Below the pieces are notes generated by a model. That model had not been told where the DNA came from. It saw only the letters and a program-made list of their open reading frames with translations, and ran no database searches. A program made the translations under genes and the position numbers. Of a DNA stretch of 64,000 nt, positions 35,358 to 47,844 are shown one piece after another. The first letter of the stretch is position 1. Each line of letters opens with the position of its first letter. This DNA comes from Thiospirochaeta perfilievii (GTDB lineage Bacteria > Spirochaetota > Spirochaetia > DSM-2461), in NCBI RefSeq assembly GCF_008329945.1, contig NZ_CP035807.1:744001-808000 (forward strand), in the 5' to 3' direction.

Positions 35358-36260
35358 ATGAAAAAAACATATTTACTAATTATCTTCTTAGCTACTAATA
35401 TTTTTTTTTGTAGTGGAGAAGATAGTGGAAAAACAGTTTTTGCAACATCTCTTTTAAGTGATAACGATCTATACCTATCCCTAGAAGGTAGTTGGACTTT
35501 TGATTTAACTACATTTGCAAATGGTACACCCTCTGATATTTTCAAAAATCTGAGTTTTAAACAAAAACCAGATCTATCTGCATCCATTTGGTTATTTAAC
35601 AAATTTTTCTTTGAAACAAACATTATATCAAATAGTGATGAAAACATTTTTCTTTTAGGATATCAAAATAGTGGAGAAGGTGGACTAAAAGAGTTTAGAA
35701 TTGGTAATGACGATCTAAATATCTCAGAATATGCCCACTATACTCCCCCAATTAATAAAAATAGGTCTCCAGGGATAAGGGCTAAAATTGAAAATTCAAA
35801 CTCAACCCATGAGATATTAGGAATCTATAGTAAAGAGGATAGGAACTTGGTAACCTATAGAGGGTTTCAAAACGTAGATACAGATACCCTAGATATTACT
35901 AATTACACCACAGGTTATTTTTTTGTCTTACCAATCGAAGTTAATGATTTTAACCTAATCTATAGTAATGATAGTAGTGAGTTATTAACTGTAGAAAAAA
36001 ACAACTTTAACTATTACAAAAATAAACATCTTTTATATGTTGAGAACACAGATTTTAATAAAATATATATAGATGTGAATGAATTTGAACAGAGTGAATT
36101 AACCACTATTTTATATAATTTTATAGATCCAGATAATAACCCAGGAATAGTAACAACACTAACAGCAACAGAGATATGGGATAAGTATATTAAGATAATA
36201 GATGGTAAAAACTACCTATCCATATTTAGTGTTGGAGAGTTCTCCCCTTTGAGCACCTAG
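35358..36260 (+). CDS. Large outer-membrane/surface protein, 5' part of a frameshifted gene
   Basis: This 300-codon frame supplies a signal peptide (MKKTYLLIIFLATNIFFCSG) and a beta-rich exported domain. It stops at TAG 36260 just after FSVGEFSPLST. The -1 frame from 36248 (FEHLGVYTSDNFDP) continues the same kind of sequence for over 1050 codons. Adding one C or T in CCCCTTT (36244-36250) gives FSVGEFSPFEHLG and restores one protein of about 1,350 residues. Only 12 bases separate the start from the ComFB gene. Confidence 0.7.
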   Translation: MKKTYLLIIFLATNIFFCSGEDSGKTVFATSLLSDNDLYLSLEGSWTFDLTTFANGTPSDIFKNLSFKQKPDLSASIWLFNKFFFETNIISNSDENIFLLGYQNSGEGGLKEFRIGNDDLNISEYAHYTPPINKNRSPGIRAKIENSNSTHEILGIYSKEDRNLVTYRGFQNVDTDTLDITNYTTGYFFVLPIEVNDFNLIYSNDSSELLTVEKNNFNYYKNKHLLYVENTDFNKIYIDVNEFEQSELTTILYNFIDPDNNPGIVTTLTATEIWDKYIKIIDGKNYLSIFSVGEFSPLST

Positions 36261-39200
36261 GTGTTTATACTAGTGATAATTTTGATCCAAACAGTAATTA
36301 TGAAATATTCCTAGAGGATACAAAGCTAATTAACTATAGGGAGAGTAACGGTTTTATCATACTTGATGACCCTACATATAATTACCTAGACTTGAATTAT
36401 AGATATCCTCTAATTCAGTTAGACCCATATATATATAGTGCCCAAGGTCAGGGACTAAATAGTAACATTAGTATATATATTAAAACATTTACAACTGTAG
36501 ACTCTATTACTGTTCCATTAACAGTAAAAGAGAATAGTTTAACAGTAAATATAAATGGGGTTAAGTATACTGACTTTACCCACGATACTGATAGTGGGAA
36601 AATATCCTTTAAAAAACAGATTACCCCCCTAGATGATATAGTAATATATTATAAAGAAGATTCATCTATTGGTAATGGAAATTTGCTACTATCCTACGGT
36701 AGTAAGTATAATATAAATGAAAATTTAAGCTTAGAGTTATCAAACACAGGGAATTGGAATCTATCCAAGGAAGAGTATACCTACTCCACTAATGAGAATA
36801 TTGGGAACCTATCATCAAAGGTGGAAGTAAACTATAAAAATAGCTATTTAAGTGGAAGGTTAACCTCTGAGTCAGTTATTTCAACACCGGATACATTAGG
36901 AAAGTATCTTCTTTTTTCCTATTCTACTTCTAACCTTATAATTCCTCTTTTAAGTACAGAGATTGGAATCTCCGACTCCCAGCTAGATCTAATTAAGAGG
37001 ATAGATAATGATATCTTTCTAGAAACAAGTGATATACAAAAGTTAGCTCCCGATGATTCCGGGGGAGCATACTATATAAACCATGTTATAGGTAACTCTG
37101 TATTTGATGTTATAGTTCTAGAATCAGATGAAATTGGTAGTGGCCTATCCGCTTCCCTTAATTTGAACTTAAAGGATTATAAGGATAACTACTCATGGGC
37201 TACAAAATTTAATATAAACCTTCTTAGCAGCCTATCAGATAGGGATATTACTATAAAATTTATAAACCCTGATCTACCTGATAATAATGTTCTTAGTAAA
37301 GCTATTAGAGTTAATAAGAGTGATACCTACCAAGAGTATACAGTTGATTTTACTGAAGAAGAGAGAGCTAAATTAAAATATATAAGTAATATAGTTATCC
37401 AGTTAAATGAAGGTAGTAAGTCCTTAATTCTACTAAAATCAATTAGCTTTACAGGGGATTCATTAGTTAAACATCAGGGTTCAAATAGCTATACAGTAAG
37501 TAGTTTAAGTGAGGATATGATAATAAAAACTACAGGGACAACAGATGGAAAAGATATAGAAATCGGCTCTAAAATATCCCCTATAGATATTACCCAGTAT
37601 AAAAAACTAAATATGACAATAACTAATAGTGGATTATTTAAGGGTGATACTTCTTTTAATTTAAATCTTAAAAACAGGGGGGAAGTAGTTGCTTCTATTA
37701 CAATTCCAGGGAGTTATATAGAAATTGGGAATAATAGGATAGAAGTTGATTTAGATAATAAAACAATAAATAACAACAACAATACTATTGGTACTTTTGA
37801 TATAACAGGTAGTGGTATAGTAGATAGTATATCTTATAATATATCTAACTATGAAATAAGTTCAGAACTAAGACTCTCTCCAATAGTTTTAAGTGAACCT
37901 GTTACAGACTTTTACAACCAGAGTGGGATTAAATTAGAGTATACCCCTAATTTAAGTTTAACATGGAAAGATAGGGAGATTCTTAGTAATTTTGTATTAA
38001 CTACTTCAAATTATTTTAATTATTCAGACAGAAACTCCTACCTACTCTCAGCAGATATAAGATTTACTCTTTTAGAAAAGGATGTTAAAGCTGGTATAAT
38101 ATTTGATGATACAATAAAGGAGTTAAATTACTTTGTATCACTACCGACCCTCCAGTTACCACTATCTATTAGCGATTCATTTATATACTCAAGTAATAGT
38201 TATAGAAATAGTAAACTTAATTTAGACACTAAATATTTAGATCTAAGAATTGATTTAGAAGATACTACAGGGAGTGAAAGTGGAAAAAGAGTATCTCAAT
38301 TTGAGTTAGAATTAAAGAATGAAGAGTCTTATTTATTAATTATAGATAGCCAGCTGACCCAACTGCGTAATGACTCTATAGATATACTAAATAGCGAGAT
38401 AGGCCAAAGTTATTACAAAATTATCCCCAAAAATACCCTAGATCTTAGTAATAATCTAAACAGTAGTTTATCTTTTTTACTTAAAAAATCCATTTTTGAA
38501 ATTAATTCCTTACAATCGACTAGCTACAAACAGGTTAAATATCCAGATAATATAGGTTCTAACAACTATTATGGAGATATATCTATTACTCTAGACCTAA
38601 AGGATATAAAACTTAAACCTAAAATATCTACAGATTACTCATTCTTAGAGAGTAGTAGTATAAATAACTTAGAGGAGGGGGTAAAAAACCATTTAAGCAA
38701 GTTTTTAGAGTACAATCCCTATAAAGAACTCTCCTTCTCCGATATTTTTTACAGTGGTAATGGTCTAGATTTCTATTATAACGATGACCTTTTTTTAAAT
38801 AAAAAACTGAATTCTTTACTATCACTAGAAATAGAAAACAACATAGAGACTTCAATAAATCTGTTTATTCCTAACAACATTACATATAGTTTAAATAAAA
38901 CCTATACCGATGATGCAACTAGGGAAGAGACAAATATAATAAATAGTTTAGACCTAGGATTTACCAGTAGCAGAAGTTTAAAAAATAGCTTTACAGCAAA
39001 TAATAGTTACAATATAGAGAATAAAAGTAACACTTTTTCTTTTCAGTGGAAATTAATATATTATAAGGAGTTATTTAAAGATTATATCCTGGATATAACA
39101 AATGACCTGATGTTGAAGGAGAATAGTTTTTCAACTCTACTTAAGACAAACTTTAATTGGCCAGGAAAATCTGGGCCCCTGCTTATTACTCCTTTATTTG

Positions 39201-39421
39201 ATAAAGTACTGGATAAACCTTATAATTATAAACATGAGGAGGCTTTATACCTTAATTTTGATCAATTAGATAGTAAATTTGGTGTGGGATTCCGACACGA
39301 GACTGTTTTAAATGTTAAAGACATTAATAAAACAAGTTTTTATATTGATGTTGGTTACAAAAATTATAGTACAGTTAAATTAAGCTTAGAGTTAGGTATT
39401 TACACTACTATAATTTTCTAA
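36248..39421 (+). CDS. Large outer-membrane/surface protein, 3' part of a frameshifted gene
   Basis: The frame is open from about 36248 to TAA 39421; the first canonical start is only an internal TTG at 36392, with no Shine-Dalgarno sequence, so this is the continuation of the upstream frame. About 1,058 residues follow, rich in alternating polar/hydrophobic beta strands and serine/asparagine, as in outer-membrane barrels and beta-helical surface proteins. The last strand ends in an aromatic residue (LELGIYTTIIF), as outer-membrane beta-barrels do. I see no catalytic motif. It may be a very large barrel or surface scaffold; no family is assigned. Confidence 0.7.
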   Translation, partial: FEHLGVYTSDNFDPNSNYEIFLEDTKLINYRESNGFIILDDPTYNYLDLNYRYPLIQLDPYIYSAQGQGLNSNISIYIKTFTTVDSITVPLTVKENSLTVNINGVKYTDFTHDTDSGKISFKKQITPLDDIVIYYKEDSSIGNGNLLLSYGSKYNINENLSLELSNTGNWNLSKEEYTYSTNENIGNLSSKVEVNYKNSYLSGRLTSESVISTPDTLGKYLLFSYSTSNLIIPLLSTEIGISDSQLDLIKRIDNDIFLETSDIQKLAPDDSGGAYYINHVIGNSVFDVIVLESDEIGSGLSASLNLNLKDYKDNYSWATKFNINLLSSLSDRDITIKFINPDLPDNNVLSKAIRVNKSDTYQEYTVDFTEEERAKLKYISNIVIQLNEGSKSLILLKSISFTGDSLVKHQGSNSYTVSSLSEDMIIKTTGTTDGKDIEIGSKISPIDITQYKKLNMTITNSGLFKGDTSFNLNLKNRGEVVASITIPGSYIEIGNNRIEVDLDNKTINNNNNTIGTFDITGSGIVDSISYNISNYEISSELRLSPIVLSEPVTDFYNQSGIKLEYTPNLSLTWKDREILSNFVLTTSNYFNYSDRNSYLLSADIRFTLLEKDVKAGIIFDDTIKELNYFVSLPTLQLPLSISDSFIYSSNSYRNSKLNLDTKYLDLRIDLEDTTGSESGKRVSQFELELKNEESYLLIIDSQLTQLRNDSIDILNSEIGQSYYKIIPKNTLDLSNNLNSSLSFLLKKSIFEINSLQSTSYKQVKYPDNIGSNNYYGDISITLDLKDIKLKPKISTDYSFLESSSINNLEEGVKNHLSKFLEYNPYKELSFSDIFYSGNGLDFYYNDDLFLNKKLNSLLSLEIENNIETSINLFIPNNITYSLNKTYTDDATREETNIINSLDLGFTSSRSLKNSFTANNSYNIENKSNTFSFQWKLIYYKELFKDYILDITNDLMLKENSFSTLLKTNFNWPGKSGPLLITPLFDKVLDKPYNYKHEEALYLNFDQLDSKFGVGFRHETVLNVKDINKTSFYIDVGYKNYSTVKLSLELGIYTTIIF

Positions 39422-43346: not shown

Positions 43347-46001
43347 TTAAGTTCTATTCCTAATTACTGATTGTGCACCAGCTAACCTTGCCAATGGAAC
43401 TCTAAATGGAGAACAAGAGACTAAATTTAGCCCACTTCTATATACAAAGTCTATAGATTTTGCCTCTCCACCATGTTCACCGCATATGGACATTTTTAAA
43501 TCACTCTTAACACTTCTACCCTTATTTACCGCAGTTATAACTAACTGGCCTACTCCCTCTTCATCAAGAACTTGAAATGGATCGTTCTGTAGTATCTTTT
43601 TACTTAAATACTCAGGAACAAAGGAGCCTACATCATCCCTTGAGTAACCAAATGTCATTTGGGTTAGATCATTTGTACCAAAGGAGAAAAAGTCAGCATA
43701 TTCTGCAATTTTATCAGCGGTTAATGCTGCCCTTGGGATCTCTATCATTGTTCCAATTTTATAGGGAACACTATCTTTTAACTCATCAAAAAGTCTAGTA
43801 ATTATAATTTCTGATCTTTCACGTAGAATTTTTAGCTCATTAACAGTCCCTACAAGGGGTATCATTATCTCTGGGAATACTTTAATACCCTCCCTTTGAC
43901 AAAAGATTGCACCACGAATAATAGCCTCTATCTGCATATCATATATCTCAGGATAAGTTATACCTAACCTACAACCTCGATGTCCAAGCATTGGATTTTG
44001 CTCTTTTAGAGACTCAATTCTTAACTTCAGTTCTGATACATCTTTATGTAGCATTTTAGCTAGACTATCAAACTCATCGCCAGGTACAAACTCATGTAAT
44101 GGAGGGTCTAATAACCTAATAGTTACTGGGAGTCCATCCATAACCTTAAAAATTCCCTTAAAGTCTGAGATCTGTAGATCTTTAATTGTTTCAAGGGCTT
44201 CAACCCTCTCACTAAGGCTATCAGCTACAATCATTCTTCTAAAGTGTTCAAGTTTAGCCTCGTCAAAAAACATATGCTCAGTACGGCAAAGTCCAATACC
44301 TACTGCACCAAACTCTCTAGCTCTTTTTGCATCCTCCGGAAGGTCAGCGTTTGCTCTAACATCAAAACCTTTTTTAACTCCATCCCTAGTTGCACTCTCT
44401 CTTACTTCATCACTCCATTTTAAAAATATCTCTAACTGGTCAGTTAATTTAGGGTATACTAAAATACATTTTCCACTATAAACATTTCCACTACTACCAT
44501 CGATTGTTATTGTATCCCCCTCTTTAAAATAGTTATTACCTATCTTCATCGCTTTACCTGATATCTCAACAGCTTTACAACCGGCGACACAGGGTTTTCC
44601 CATTCCCCTTGCAACAACAGCAGCGTGACTTGTCATACCGCCTGTAGCTGTTAATATACCCTCTGCAGCATTCATCCCTCCAATATCTTCTGGGGATGTC
44701 TCTCTTCTTACCAATAGGACATTACGCCCCTCTAGAGCCTTTGCCTCTGCATCCTCTGGAGTGAATACAATTTCTCCACATGCAGCTCCAGGAGAAGCAT
44801 TAAGACCTGTTGCAACAGCTTTTAAGGAGTTTAGTGTAGTTGGATCAATCATTGGATGTAGAAGTTGATCTAACTGATCTGGAGTTACACGCATAATTGC
44901 AGTCTCTTTATCTATTAGACCCTCTGAAACAAGATCAACAGCTACTTTAACAGCTGCCTGACCTGTTCTCTTTCCATTTCTAGTTTGAAGGAGAAAGAGT
45001 TTCCCCCTCTCTATGGTAAACTCCATATCCTGCATATCTTTATAGTGATTCTCCAGTGTCTGTTTAACATCTAATAACTCTTTATATAACTGGGGGTTTT
45101 CACTCTCTAATGTGCTTAGTTTCTGAGGTGTTCTAATCCCTGCAACAACATCCTCTCCCTGGGCATTCATTAGATACTCACCATAAAAGTAGTTATCTCC
45201 TGTAGCTGGATCCCTTGAAAAACATACACCAGTACCGGAATCATCACCAAAATTTCCAAAAACCATTGATTGAACATTAACAGCGGTACCAATTAAACCA
45301 TCTATCTTATTTATAGTTCTATATTTAACCGCCCTCTCATTATTCCATGATCCAAAAACAGCTCCAATTGCAGCCCATAATTGCACCAAAGGGTCTTCGG
45401 GAAAACTCTCTCCCGTATTATCTTTATAAACTTCCTTATAGAGATTTACCAACTCTTTTAAGTCATCTACATTTAATTCTGTGTCTAGATCATAATTATG
45501 AAAGTTTTTAATTGATGTTAATTTATCTTCGAAGAGGGAGTGGGAGACACCCATTACAACATCTCCAAACATCTGAATAAACCTTCGGTAGGAGTCCCAT
45601 GCAAAACGTGGATTACCACTTATCTGGCCTAGTGCAACTACAGATGTTGAGTTTAAACCTAGATTAAGAACTGTATCCATCATTCCTGGCATTGAGATAG
45701 CTGCTCCAGAACGCACAGAGACTAGAAGAGGATCCTTAGGGTCGCCAAACTTCTTATTTGTCTCTTTTTCTAGTTTTACAATATTTGATTCTATCTCTTT
45801 TTTTACATCTTCAGGATAAGAGTGATTTTTCTCTGAATATATTTTACAAACCTTTGTAGATATTGTGAAACCAGGAGGGACAGGGATATTTAAATTGGTC
45901 ATCTCTGCCAGGTTTGCGCCCTTTCCCCCAAGTAAATTTTTCATAGATGTTGAGCCTTCTGCTTTACCACTACCAAAAAAGTAAACGTTTTTTTTGTCCA
46001 T
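43347..46001 (-). CDS. ppdK: Pyruvate, phosphate dikinase
   Basis: This 884-residue enzyme interconverts pyruvate/ATP/phosphate and PEP/AMP/PPi. N-terminal nucleotide-binding region: LLGGKGANLAEM and SGAAISMPGMMDTVLNLG. Swivelling phosphohistidine domain: ETSPEDIGGMNAAEGILTA and GGMTSHAAVVARGMGKPC, with the catalytic histidine. PEP/pyruvate barrel: GLCRTEHMFF, MLGHRGCRLG and SFGTNDLTQMTFG. I chose ATG 46001 (MDKKNVYFFGSGKAEG) because GGAGG lies five bases upstream; the frame extends 23 codons further without such a site. It lies 58 bases after the sigma-factor gene. Confidence 0.95.
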   Translation of the reverse strand: MDKKNVYFFGSGKAEGSTSMKNLLGGKGANLAEMTNLNIPVPPGFTISTKVCKIYSEKNHSYPEDVKKEIESNIVKLEKETNKKFGDPKDPLLVSVRSGAAISMPGMMDTVLNLGLNSTSVVALGQISGNPRFAWDSYRRFIQMFGDVVMGVSHSLFEDKLTSIKNFHNYDLDTELNVDDLKELVNLYKEVYKDNTGESFPEDPLVQLWAAIGAVFGSWNNERAVKYRTINKIDGLIGTAVNVQSMVFGNFGDDSGTGVCFSRDPATGDNYFYGEYLMNAQGEDVVAGIRTPQKLSTLESENPQLYKELLDVKQTLENHYKDMQDMEFTIERGKLFLLQTRNGKRTGQAAVKVAVDLVSEGLIDKETAIMRVTPDQLDQLLHPMIDPTTLNSLKAVATGLNASPGAACGEIVFTPEDAEAKALEGRNVLLVRRETSPEDIGGMNAAEGILTATGGMTSHAAVVARGMGKPCVAGCKAVEISGKAMKIGNNYFKEGDTITIDGSSGNVYSGKCILVYPKLTDQLEIFLKWSDEVRESATRDGVKKGFDVRANADLPEDAKRAREFGAVGIGLCRTEHMFFDEAKLEHFRRMIVADSLSERVEALETIKDLQISDFKGIFKVMDGLPVTIRLLDPPLHEFVPGDEFDSLAKMLHKDVSELKLRIESLKEQNPMLGHRGCRLGITYPEIYDMQIEAIIRGAIFCQREGIKVFPEIMIPLVGTVNELKILRERSEIIITRLFDELKDSVPYKIGTMIEIPRAALTADKIAEYADFFSFGTNDLTQMTFGYSRDDVGSFVPEYLSKKILQNDPFQVLDEEGVGQLVITAVNKGRSVKSDLKMSICGEHGGEAKSIDFVYRSGLNLVSCSPFRVPLARLAGAQSVIRNRT

Positions 46002-46059
46002 ATTTTCCTCCAATCTATATAAATAATCATTATATATGAAGTGGTGGAAGTCAAACTTT

Positions 46060-46895
46060 TTAAGCGACAAAAACCTCTAGTGATTCCCTATTTACAGAAT
46101 CCCTTAGTTTTTCTAAAGCTTTTTTTTCTATTTGCCTAACTCTCTCTTTTGTTACACCTAATTGATCTCCAATTGCCCTTAAAGAGAGGGGTTTATTTTC
46201 ATTTAGACCAAACCTTAAATTTATGATCATAGCTTCTTTATCATTTAAGTTCGAAAGCTCACTATTTATACTCTCCTTAAGGGAGTTAGTTAAAGCCTCT
46301 TCTTCTGGTGTTTTATATGTTGATTCAATAATATCACCAAGGTTACCTGAATCAGAGGCATCTGAACTTGGAGAGTCTAGTGATATTAAATCTTGGGATA
46401 TTTCAATTAGTTCTTGTACTTTAATATTATCCATACCTAATATTGCTGCGACTTCCTTAGTATCAACTTGTTCTCCTGTTACCCTTGAAATCTCTCTTTG
46501 AGTTTTCTGAATTTGAACAAGTTCGTTAGCTCTATTAAGGGGTAGTCGTATAGATCTTGATTTTTCACATACAGCTTTTAATATAGACTGTCTAATCCAC
46601 CATACTGCGTAGGAGATAAAATGATACCCTTTGTCTGGATCAAACTTATCAACTGCAGTCATAAGACCCAAATTCCCCTCATTTATCAAGTCTTCAAAGG
46701 GTATTCCACTGTTTTTATATTTTTTTGCAACATTGACAACGAACCTAAGATTAGAAGTTATTAATCTCTCTTTAGCTTCTGAATCACCATCCAAGGCTTT
46801 CTAGCTATTGAGTCCTCCTCTTCTCTTGTTAATAAAGGTATTCTATTTATCTCATCTAAATATAATGCTAGTAAGTTTTCTTCATTATTAATCAT
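46060..46895 (-). CDS. RpoS-like (group 2) sigma-70 factor, frameshifted near the 5' end
   Basis: The start is ATG 46895 with GGAGG five bases upstream. The first 33 codons (MINNEENLLALYLDEINRIP and on to ARK) are region 1.2. The frame then meets a stop, while the -1 frame continues ALDGDSEAKERLITSNLRFV. One extra A or G around 46798-46801 restores a 279-residue factor with regions 2 (GYHFISYAVWWIRQSILKA), 3 and 4 (GVTKERVRQIEKKALEKLR). No region 1.1 is present and the length suits RpoS or other group 2 factors, not RpoD. It directs RNA polymerase to a promoter subset; upstream repeats suggest control of its own expression. Confidence 0.85.
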
Positions 46896-47009
46896 TGTAT
46901 CCTCCATAGGAACTGTTATGTAAACAATAAAGCAAGTAGCGTGCCAACTATTCTAGAGGTTAACTAAGGGGGTTAGATCAGAATTTTTAGTTATTTTTAA
47001 TGAAAGTTG

Positions 47010-47095
47010 AGTCAATAAAACACATTTTATTCTTTTGTTATCAGAAGTGGGTCAAATTATCCTTATTTATATATTATTTGTTCAAGGTGTGTCAA
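47010..47095 (-). repeat. Three TTGACnCA direct repeats with 40-bp period
   Basis: On the minus strand TTGACACACCTT, TTGACCCACTT and TTGACTCAACTT start at 47095, 47055 and 47015, exactly 40 bases apart. Similarity extends beyond a -35 hexamer (TTGACnCAmyTT). They lie 115-200 bases before the sigma-factor start, in the intergenic region after the small orphan gene. Only the first has a plausible -10. Confidence 0.7.
47066..47095 (-). promoter_or_regulatory. Putative sigma70 promoter upstream of the sigma-factor gene
   Basis: Minus strand: perfect TTGACA (47095-47090) with TATAAA (47071-47066) at 18 bases spacing, or TATATA at 16. It is the first of the three repeated TTGAC motifs and would give a leader of about 165 bases. 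Confidence 0.5.
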
Positions 47096-47105
47096 AAAGT
47101 AACAG

Positions 47106-47435
47106 TTAGCGATTAAAAGAGTGAAAATCTACATAGGTTATTCCATCACTCCAGCTTGATGGGATATCTGAATATGGGAATATTATTTCAATTGATTTAA
47201 AAATATCCTCTTTTTCCTTAGTATCTTTATTATTTATATAACCAGTAGCTAGGAGATCACACCAATAATCCTTTATTAAATCGATTATCATATCCAGCTC
47301 TGGGGAACTTACTTTTTTATTATTCTTTTTTTCTGATAGATATTTATTTATCTGTACTTCTTTAAAAATAGAGAAATCTTCCATAAAAAAAATTGCTCTA
47401 GATAAATTGTCCAGCACTTCTAACCTTCCTAACAC
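47106..47435 (-). CDS. Small protein of unknown function
   Basis: The product is about 109 residues, mostly acidic/helical (ELDMIIDLIKDYWCDLLAT), with no signal peptide or recognised motif. I choose GTG 47435 because AAAGGA lies about six bases upstream. A longer TTG frame to 47486 would add a hydrophobic N-terminus and has no Shine-Dalgarno sequence. The gene is divergent from groES and lies upstream of the sigma-factor control region. No homologue is recognised, so it may be lineage-specific. Confidence 0.5.
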   Translation of the reverse strand: MLGRLEVLDNLSRAIFFMEDFSIFKEVQINKYLSEKKNNKKVSSPELDMIIDLIKDYWCDLLATGYINNKDTKEKEDIFKSIEIIFPYSDIPSSWSDGITYVDFHSFNR

Positions 47436-47531
47436 TCTATATCCTTTTGTTAATAAAAAAATAATAAATAAATAACAAAATGACAATTTATTTTCAAAAA
47501 AACTTACGTTATGTTGCCCATAGAACTAAAT

Positions 47532-47561
47532 TTGACTATATTATATTTAAGTTTTTATGAT
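47532..47561 (+). promoter_or_regulatory. Sigma70-type promoter of groES
   Basis: TTGACT (47532-47537), an 18-base spacer and TATGAT (47556-47561) precede AAGGAG (47566-47571) and the GTG at 47578. The -10 covers an upstream ATG at 47557, which argues against using that ATG as the start. No CIRCE inverted repeat is seen. Confidence 0.5.
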
Positions 47562-47577
47562 AGTTAAGGAGTTACAT

Positions 47578-47844
47578 GTGAAAATTAAACCATTAGGTGA
47601 TAGAGTATTAATTAAAATAGAAGAAGCAGAAACAAAAACAGCCTCTGGACTATTTATTCCACAAACAGCTCAGGAAAAGACTCAGCAGGGTGTTGTTGTA
47701 ACTATTGGCGATGATACTGAGACAATAACAGTTAAAGCAGGTGATAAAGTTATGTATGATAAATATGCAGGTACACCTGTAAAGATTGATTCTGCTGATC
47801 ATCTTATAGTGCAAATGTCAGATATTATTGCAATTATTGAGTAA
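47578..47844 (+). CDS. groES: Co-chaperonin GroES
   Basis: The product is 88 residues: [20 protein letters not shown] at the N-terminus, the mobile loop [17 protein letters not shown], and the C-terminal strand [12 protein letters not shown] use GTG 47578 because AAGGAG lies six bases upstream and because the usual GroES begins MKIKPLGDR; an ATG at 47557 sits inside the likely -10 box. GroES caps the GroEL chamber. No groEL follows; a terminator lies 22 bases after the stop, so groES is monocistronic here, as I recall for Borrelia. Confidence 0.95.

Follow-up and report, generated by a model that had tools for sequence, protein, structure and literature searches.

Conserved 40-bp arrays of putative enhancer sites at sigma-54 promoters of an alternative sigma factor gene and hsp20 genes in spirochaetes

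Results

Three repeats that lie exactly 40 bp apart upstream of an alternative sigma factor gene of Thiospirochaeta perfilievii are, judging from sequence and conservation, very probably docking (enhancer) sites for a sigma-54 activator (bEBP). They were found in a window of 64,000 nucleotides (positions 744,001 to 808,000 of contig NZ_CP035807.1), which is the whole stretch analysed here and to which all plain coordinates below refer; the complete genome of the species is denoted G000. The presence of such arrays at the sigma gene and at small heat-shock genes across many spirochaetes suggests a shared, apparently undescribed stress-response switch.

Three repeats at an exact 40-bp period

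On the minus strand, TTGACnCA occurs as TTGACACA (47088-47095), TTGACCCA (47048-47055) and TTGACTCA (47008-47015), and these positions confirm the exact 40-bp period, start to start and twice in succession, that an earlier note on this DNA had described. The array begins just past the stop codon of the ORF at 47106..47486. The longer form TTGACnCAmyTT, which had been given for all three copies, holds for copies 1 and 3, and copy 2 (TTGACCCACTTC) matches at 11 of 12 positions, one base off. The period had also been equated with about four helical turns, which is loose: with 10.5 bp to the turn, 40 bp makes ~3.8 turns, and spacings of 40 to 43 bp are used in the hsp20 arrays described below.

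Taken alone, the short motif is as frequent as chance predicts, with 5 copies of TTGACnCA in the window against 5.33 expected and 10 copies of the 12-mer TTGACnCAmyTT in the own genome against 15 in the reversed control. Genome-wide counting of the short motif, as the earlier note had proposed, is uninformative; it is the arrangement at 40-bp spacing that is special and conserved. When the proposed genome-wide search for 40-bp pairs was run with TGACnCA and no mismatch, it returned this locus only, as two overlapping pairs, and allowing one mismatch added 2 places in the own genome, against 4 in all in the reversed control. None of 2000 Markov resamples of the sigma-gene upstream region contained an equally spaced triple. 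A chance repeat was rejected on this resampling and on the conserved 40-bp spacing.

Iterated motif building on the upstream regions of sigma-gene orthologues yielded the palindrome TGkGTCA-www-TGACnCA, 17 bp long, whose right arm is the stronger. By this comparison, what is conserved is not TTGACnCA but TGACnCA together with a left arm, the first T of TTGAC being variable (AATGACACA in G002). The repeats resemble -35 boxes because TTGAC falls in the right arm; as the alignments read, they are not such boxes, and each represents the right, better preserved arm of a palindrome. The distal putative enhancer site 1, TGTTACTTTTTGACACA (47088..47104, minus strand), has a good right arm and a degenerate left arm, scores 15.6 bits with the position weight matrix (PWM) and starts its right arm at -147 from the -24 element. 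Exactly 40 bp further on lies putative site 2, AAGGATAATTTGACCCA (47048..47064, minus strand), the weakest copy (9.6 bits, at -107), and exactly 40 bp beyond that the proximal putative site 3, TGTGTTTTATTGACTCA (47008..47024, minus strand; 17.1 bits, at -67). Site 1 is conserved in the congeneric genomes G001 and G002, and sites 2 and 3 are aligned there. The left arms of the window sites are degenerate, and a perfect palindrome is reached by no site in G000.

A sigma-54 promoter between the array and the sigma gene

Sigma-54 promoters have a -24/-12 consensus of the type TTGGCAY-N5-TTGCT. An exact match, TTGGCACGCTACTTGCT (46931..46947, minus strand), lies ~60 bp past the last repeat copy and ~35 bp ahead of the ATG of the sigma gene (46895), and is conserved at the orthologues. 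The first copy had been thought to overlap the promoter, which proved wrong, as this sigma-54 element, downstream of all three copies, is the only conserved promoter. The locus agrees with what is expected of a sigma-54 promoter with a bEBP enhancer, namely a TGGCAY-N5-TTGC element at a short distance from the start codon and repeated palindromic sites, usually ~80-200 bp upstream, whose distance to the promoter may vary. The own genome contains 8 exact matches to TTGGCAC-N5-TTGCW, one at the sigma gene and the other seven preceding genes that we named, by the look of the downstream proteins, as nifV-like, nif-cofactor-like, nifH, hsp20, dolichol-kinase-like, pspA and amtB; by that same look, this would be a sensible sigma-54 set. 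RpoN is represented by a single PF04552 match, so that the genome holds both an rpoN gene and bEBP genes. Across 50 sigma-gene loci, 45 have a strong sigma-54 match near the start (score 20.5-25 of 25).

The target gene (46060..46895, minus strand) encodes a group-2-like factor of the sigma-70 family and starts at an ATG that follows an AGGAGG-like site. It contains a one-nucleotide frame change near 46794, so that the mechanically called ORF spans 46060-46794; the orthologues in G001 and G002 are intact (288-291 aa). Pfam regions 2, 3 and 4 were recognized in the window's gene, and region 1.2 in addition in the 288-aa G002 orthologue, which, having regions 1.2, 2, 3 and 4 and no long region 1.1, has the composition of a group 2 sigma-70 factor. 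The same orthologue falls below the RpoS equivalog cut-offs (TIGR02394, 267.9 against 378.7; NF004207, 259.5 against 394).

Downstream lies the gene for pyruvate phosphate dikinase (43347..46070, minus strand), a neighbour of the sigma gene in many relatives. Several relatives have a homologue of the small upstream ORF (47106..47486, minus strand) ahead of their sigma gene; the ORF itself matched nothing in Pfam or NCBIfam, and a longer relative (L203:3966-4649) gave weak matches to TPR and SEC-C. A divergent gene (47557..47844, plus strand), which we take from its sequence to be groES-like, is likewise found next to the sigma gene in several relatives, Breznakiella homolactica among them. Elsewhere in the window, adjacent plus-strand ORFs at 35358-36260 and 36392-39421 resemble pieces of one large surface protein and are possibly a third frameshifted or split gene.

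Conservation of the array at the sigma gene

Within the genus (the own genome, G001 and G002), the upstream alignment has three TGAC cores whose 40-bp register is the same throughout, with diverged sequence on either side, and after them a conserved TTGGCAY-N5-TTGCT. For the wider set, 43 upstream regions were used. From the 50 sigma loci we omitted L053, L055 and L057, which have no sigma-54 promoter that is credible, L027 and L056, which lie at a contig end, and L022 and L026, whose upstream sequence was too short. The three loci in the first group are distant sigma homologues that have neither a sigma-54 promoter nor a 40-bp TGAC pair. Named relatives comprise spirochaete MAGs, Treponema sp. 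and Breznakiella homolactica; of the 80 named loci, the first 20 were examined.

Among the 52 TGAC-TGAC pairs found 8-120 bp apart in the 43 regions, 24 stand at 40 bp, and in 300 Markov resamples of those regions no distance was counted more than 3 times. The first motif model had been seeded partly with 40-bp pairs, and the analysis was repeated without that seeding, using a PWM trained on single TGACnCA sites with two-fold cross-validation. With this matrix, a pair at 40 or 41 bp was present in 41 of the 43 orthologous upstream regions (exactly 40 bp in 39), and triples at 40/40 in 7. The distance from proximal site to promoter ranges from 46 to 201 bp (median 112; 39 loci) while the site spacing stays at 40-41 bp; such promoter distances are typical of bEBP sites. 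These comparisons uphold the earlier note's reading of the repeats as binding sites for a regulator, set at a rigid period ahead of the sigma gene, the spacing being kept in genus and class.

The exact palindrome was searched in 41 genomes and found at 10 places in 9 of them, against 1 place in the reversed control. Seven of these places are at the sigma gene, one is at hsp20, one precedes a transposase-like ORF (L168) and one is in a CRISPR-like array (L169); the last two are probably chance matches, since neither has a sigma-54 promoter. The CRISPR-like repeat array at L169 (G033:C69) is large and translates to recurring SIPACTGKP/VYPRVYGET/GLSPRVRGN peptides.

The same array at hsp20 and other genes

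Equally spaced triples accompany three of the 29 sigma-54-like matches in the own genome: that of the sigma gene (-147/-107/-67), that of hsp20 (L137) and that of a clpA/clpC-type gene (L147), the latter two with sites at -136/-95/-54 each. At none of the three did 2000 resamples produce a triple, and the remaining 26 loci, including nif, amtB and pspA, lack one. At L147 (C1:888206-888222), a sigma-54 promoter and three sites at a 41-bp pitch share their register with hsp20 L137. Sites at clpC occur in 1 of 30 loci, G000 only, and clpC was rejected as a conserved target on that confinement; the L147 array is probably a lineage-specific recruitment.

For hsp20 in the relatives, we scanned with the model trained on sigma-gene sites only, at a lax threshold (0.1% of shuffled positions) at which 2 of 9 other own-genome sigma-54 loci gave one stray site each. 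Of the 32 loci, 29 were used: L239 gave no tblastn row, L171 duplicates L241, and the upstream region of L220 is short. A pair at 39-45 bp was present in 26 of these 29 usable upstream regions, and spacings of 40, 41, 42 and 43 bp accounted for 9, 8, 8 and 6 pairs, respectively. Nine second genes of tandem hsp20 operons have no such promoter.

A gene-blind search of 394 genomes of the class, in which two TGACnC cores at 40-42 bp were combined with a sigma-54 element, returned 41 places, each in a different genome, and the reversed control returned nothing. The strictness of the pattern makes 41 of 394 a minimum, and little can be read into an absence. The places comprise 27 at the sigma gene, 12 at hsp20 (including G038), one at a gene for an HtpX-like protease and one at a gene for a TRAP-type protein without a PWM site. 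The HtpX-like membrane protease gene (L288 / L347, G219:C76; named by reading), with its composite array, is a third proteostasis target, seen in one genome.

A candidate activator and its kinase

Six strong bEBPs (PF00158) are encoded in the own genome, which neighbourhood and BLAST comparison assign as two NifA-like proteins, a PspF-like one, an NtrX-like one beside rpoN (L122), a receiver-less one (L124) and a kinase-paired one (L120; G000:C1:3659521), the last a response regulator with a neighbouring PAS kinase. Both L122 and L124 also have HTH-like C-termini, and either might in principle bind the same array in place of L120, which we regard as unlikely in view of two genomes with 40-bp pairs at the sigma gene. 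In G035 (99% complete) and G030 (95%), a single strong PF00158 match was found (246 and 245 bits, respectively; the rest ≤33 bits), and each is an L120 orthologue (64% and 60%). The L120 type is the likely binder, because these two near-complete, array-bearing genomes have it as their only strong sigma-54 activator. G038, whose best match to the sigma gene (E 1.2e-48) is below the level of the orthologues elsewhere, has an hsp20 array and an L120 orthologue (61%). In ten regions chosen for a bEBP near the sigma gene, and hence no unbiased sample, all ten bEBPs are L120 orthologues, ~3-12 kb from the sigma gene, which also speaks against another bEBP as binder. The kinase and activator genes showed no sites of their own, so that autoregulation lends the pairing no support.

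The L203 orthologue of the activator exceeds the cut-offs for a receiver (PF00072), an AAA+ domain (PF00158) and HTH_8 (PF02954), the make-up of an NtrC-type response regulator, and matches solved NtrC-family chains, ZraR among them. Its scores stay below the curated NCBIfam cut-offs of the AtoC (518.5 against 714) and ZraR (422.8 against 760) equivalogs. The neighbouring kinase has PAS, HisKA and HATPase domains, and hydropathy analysis of four orthologues (19-residue window, maximum 1.43) indicated no membrane segment. Going by these features, the binder is likely a response regulator of the AtoC/ZraR-like kind, paired with a PAS kinase that is soluble. In the own genome, the activator gene (L120 / L276, C1:3656000-3663000) is frameshifted just before the HTH, so that it and the sigma gene are both broken in this assembly while intact relatives exist. 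Two broken genes of one circuit point either to assembly or indel error or to decay, and the circuit may not work in this strain.

The sites could instead serve another palindrome-binding regulator, a repressor or an accessory activator, much as rpoS in Borrelia requires the second DNA-binding activator BosR, with three footprinted regions (PMC3037356), and as Rrp2 is enhancer-independent according to a title cited in PMC6719511. We judge this decidedly improbable: the arrays accompany sigma-54 promoters at the sigma gene and hsp20 (in regions chosen by gene), and they are absent from the nif, amtB and pspA sigma-54 promoters of the own genome, as expected for the regulon of one activator. The proximal-site distances, bEBP-like as noted above, point the same way. 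The class-wide search cannot be used against this alternative, because it required a sigma-54 promoter. That three tandem sigma-70 promoters precede the sigma gene is hardly credible and was rejected, for although TTGACA/C/T fits the letters of the -35 consensus and -10-like hexamers exist in the A+T-rich window, no copy came up as a first hexamer in a promoter scan, the region held no excess of promoter-like sites (7 against 5.0 in shuffles, sd 1.9), TGACnCA and the left arm are conserved where the first T of TTGAC is not, and the conserved promoter is the sigma-54 element.

Discussion

The reading we favour, in which an L120-type bEBP on the 40-bp enhancer array acts on a sigma-54 promoter and so drives a stress cascade of the sigma gene and hsp20, is highly probable on present comparisons. 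The genomes themselves show the sites and their spacing, the promoter, the conservation, the members of the regulon and, in two genomes, a lone strong candidate for the activator; from these we infer binding, phosphorylation, oligomer assembly, looping and a stress signal. The soluble PAS histidine kinase would switch on its neighbour L120 (receiver, AAA+, Fis-type HTH) by phosphorylation; L120 dimers would bind the 17-bp palindromes, whose fixed 40-bp register would allow the dimers to join into an active AAA+ oligomer. The oligomer would then be carried by looping of the DNA to the sigma-54 polymerase at 46931-46947, with a transcription start expected near 46920, and the alternative sigma-70-family gene would be transcribed. 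The hsp20 genes would be driven by the same activator, as would probably one clpA/clpC gene in T. perfilievii, giving a predicted order of sensor kinase, activator, sigma-54, and finally chaperones together with a second sigma factor. At 10.5 bp per turn, 40 bp does not make up a whole number of helical turns, and the pitch is therefore probably set by the geometry of the protein rather than by stacking on one face of the helix.

A broader proposal can be offered only tentatively, and we lean somewhat against it. The system may be an ancestral proteostasis switch of all Spirochaetia, in which a soluble kinase and an AtoC-like partner sense protein damage and 40-bp-locked dimers fire the sigma-54 promoters of genes for small heat-shock proteins and for a second sigma factor, through which the response would spread, doing here a job that falls elsewhere to sigma-32 or HrcA; the RpoN-RpoS virulence cascade of Borrelia would then be an enhancer-less remnant, and the pitch a readout of two bEBP dimers seeding a hexamer. 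The arrays offer a concrete cis-element and a candidate activator for the general stress response of spirochaetes, whose mechanism had been left open, and they form a natural data set on enhancer geometry in which site-to-site spacing is fixed and promoter distance is free.

A search of the open-access literature, with most subscription papers outside its reach, found no description of this array. In Leptospira, EbpA-RpoN controls amtB and lipoprotein genes, according to the accessible parts of PMC12655853, and a 2025 sigma-54 survey, in the parts seen, lists IbpA among sigma-54-linked chaperones generally, without a 40-bp element (PMC12316311).

The closest physiological counterpart comes from Treponema denticola, where array experiments placed the sigma-70 gene TDE0937 and the Hsp20 gene TDE1029 among core stress genes induced by heat, oxygen and osmotic downshift (for TDE0937 2.8, 21.8 and 14.0, respectively); the accessible parts of that report offer no mechanism, promoter or activator and only suggest TDE0937 as a regulator (PMC2965109). 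No other mention of TDE0937 was found in the open-access literature. Its locus number is near that of groES (TDE0934), just as a groES-like gene lies beside the sigma gene in the window and in Breznakiella, and from this neighbourhood TDE0937 is likely the orthologue of the sigma gene described here.

Among enterobacterial systems, ZraS-ZraR and AtoS-AtoC are the nearest, with the best NCBIfam resemblances (AtoC 518 bits, ZraR 423, kinase AtoS 304) and the same receiver-AAA+-HTH_8 layout. A ZraR site probably has the same arm geometry; its letters were sought in print and not found. ZraR activates the chaperone gene zraP, as stated in the parts of PMC7657598 available. The present system differs in that all scores are below the curated cut-offs, the kinase has no membrane segment, and the targets are the sigma gene and hsp20.

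The cascade of Borrelia burgdorferi begins with the kinase Hk2. Like the circuit proposed here, it uses a bEBP, the response regulator Rrp2, and RpoN to transcribe an RpoS-like sigma gene from a -24/-12 promoter, with BosR (PMC3037356, PMC6719511). In the parts of this literature seen, activation there is reported to be enhancer-independent and to need BosR, with direct repeats TAAATTAAAT, whereas the spirochaetes studied here have conserved, putatively enhancer-type palindromes at fixed spacing and hsp20 genes predicted to be under the same control. The much-studied RpoN-RpoS cascade of Borrelia thereby gains a probable enhancer-dependent relative beside it.
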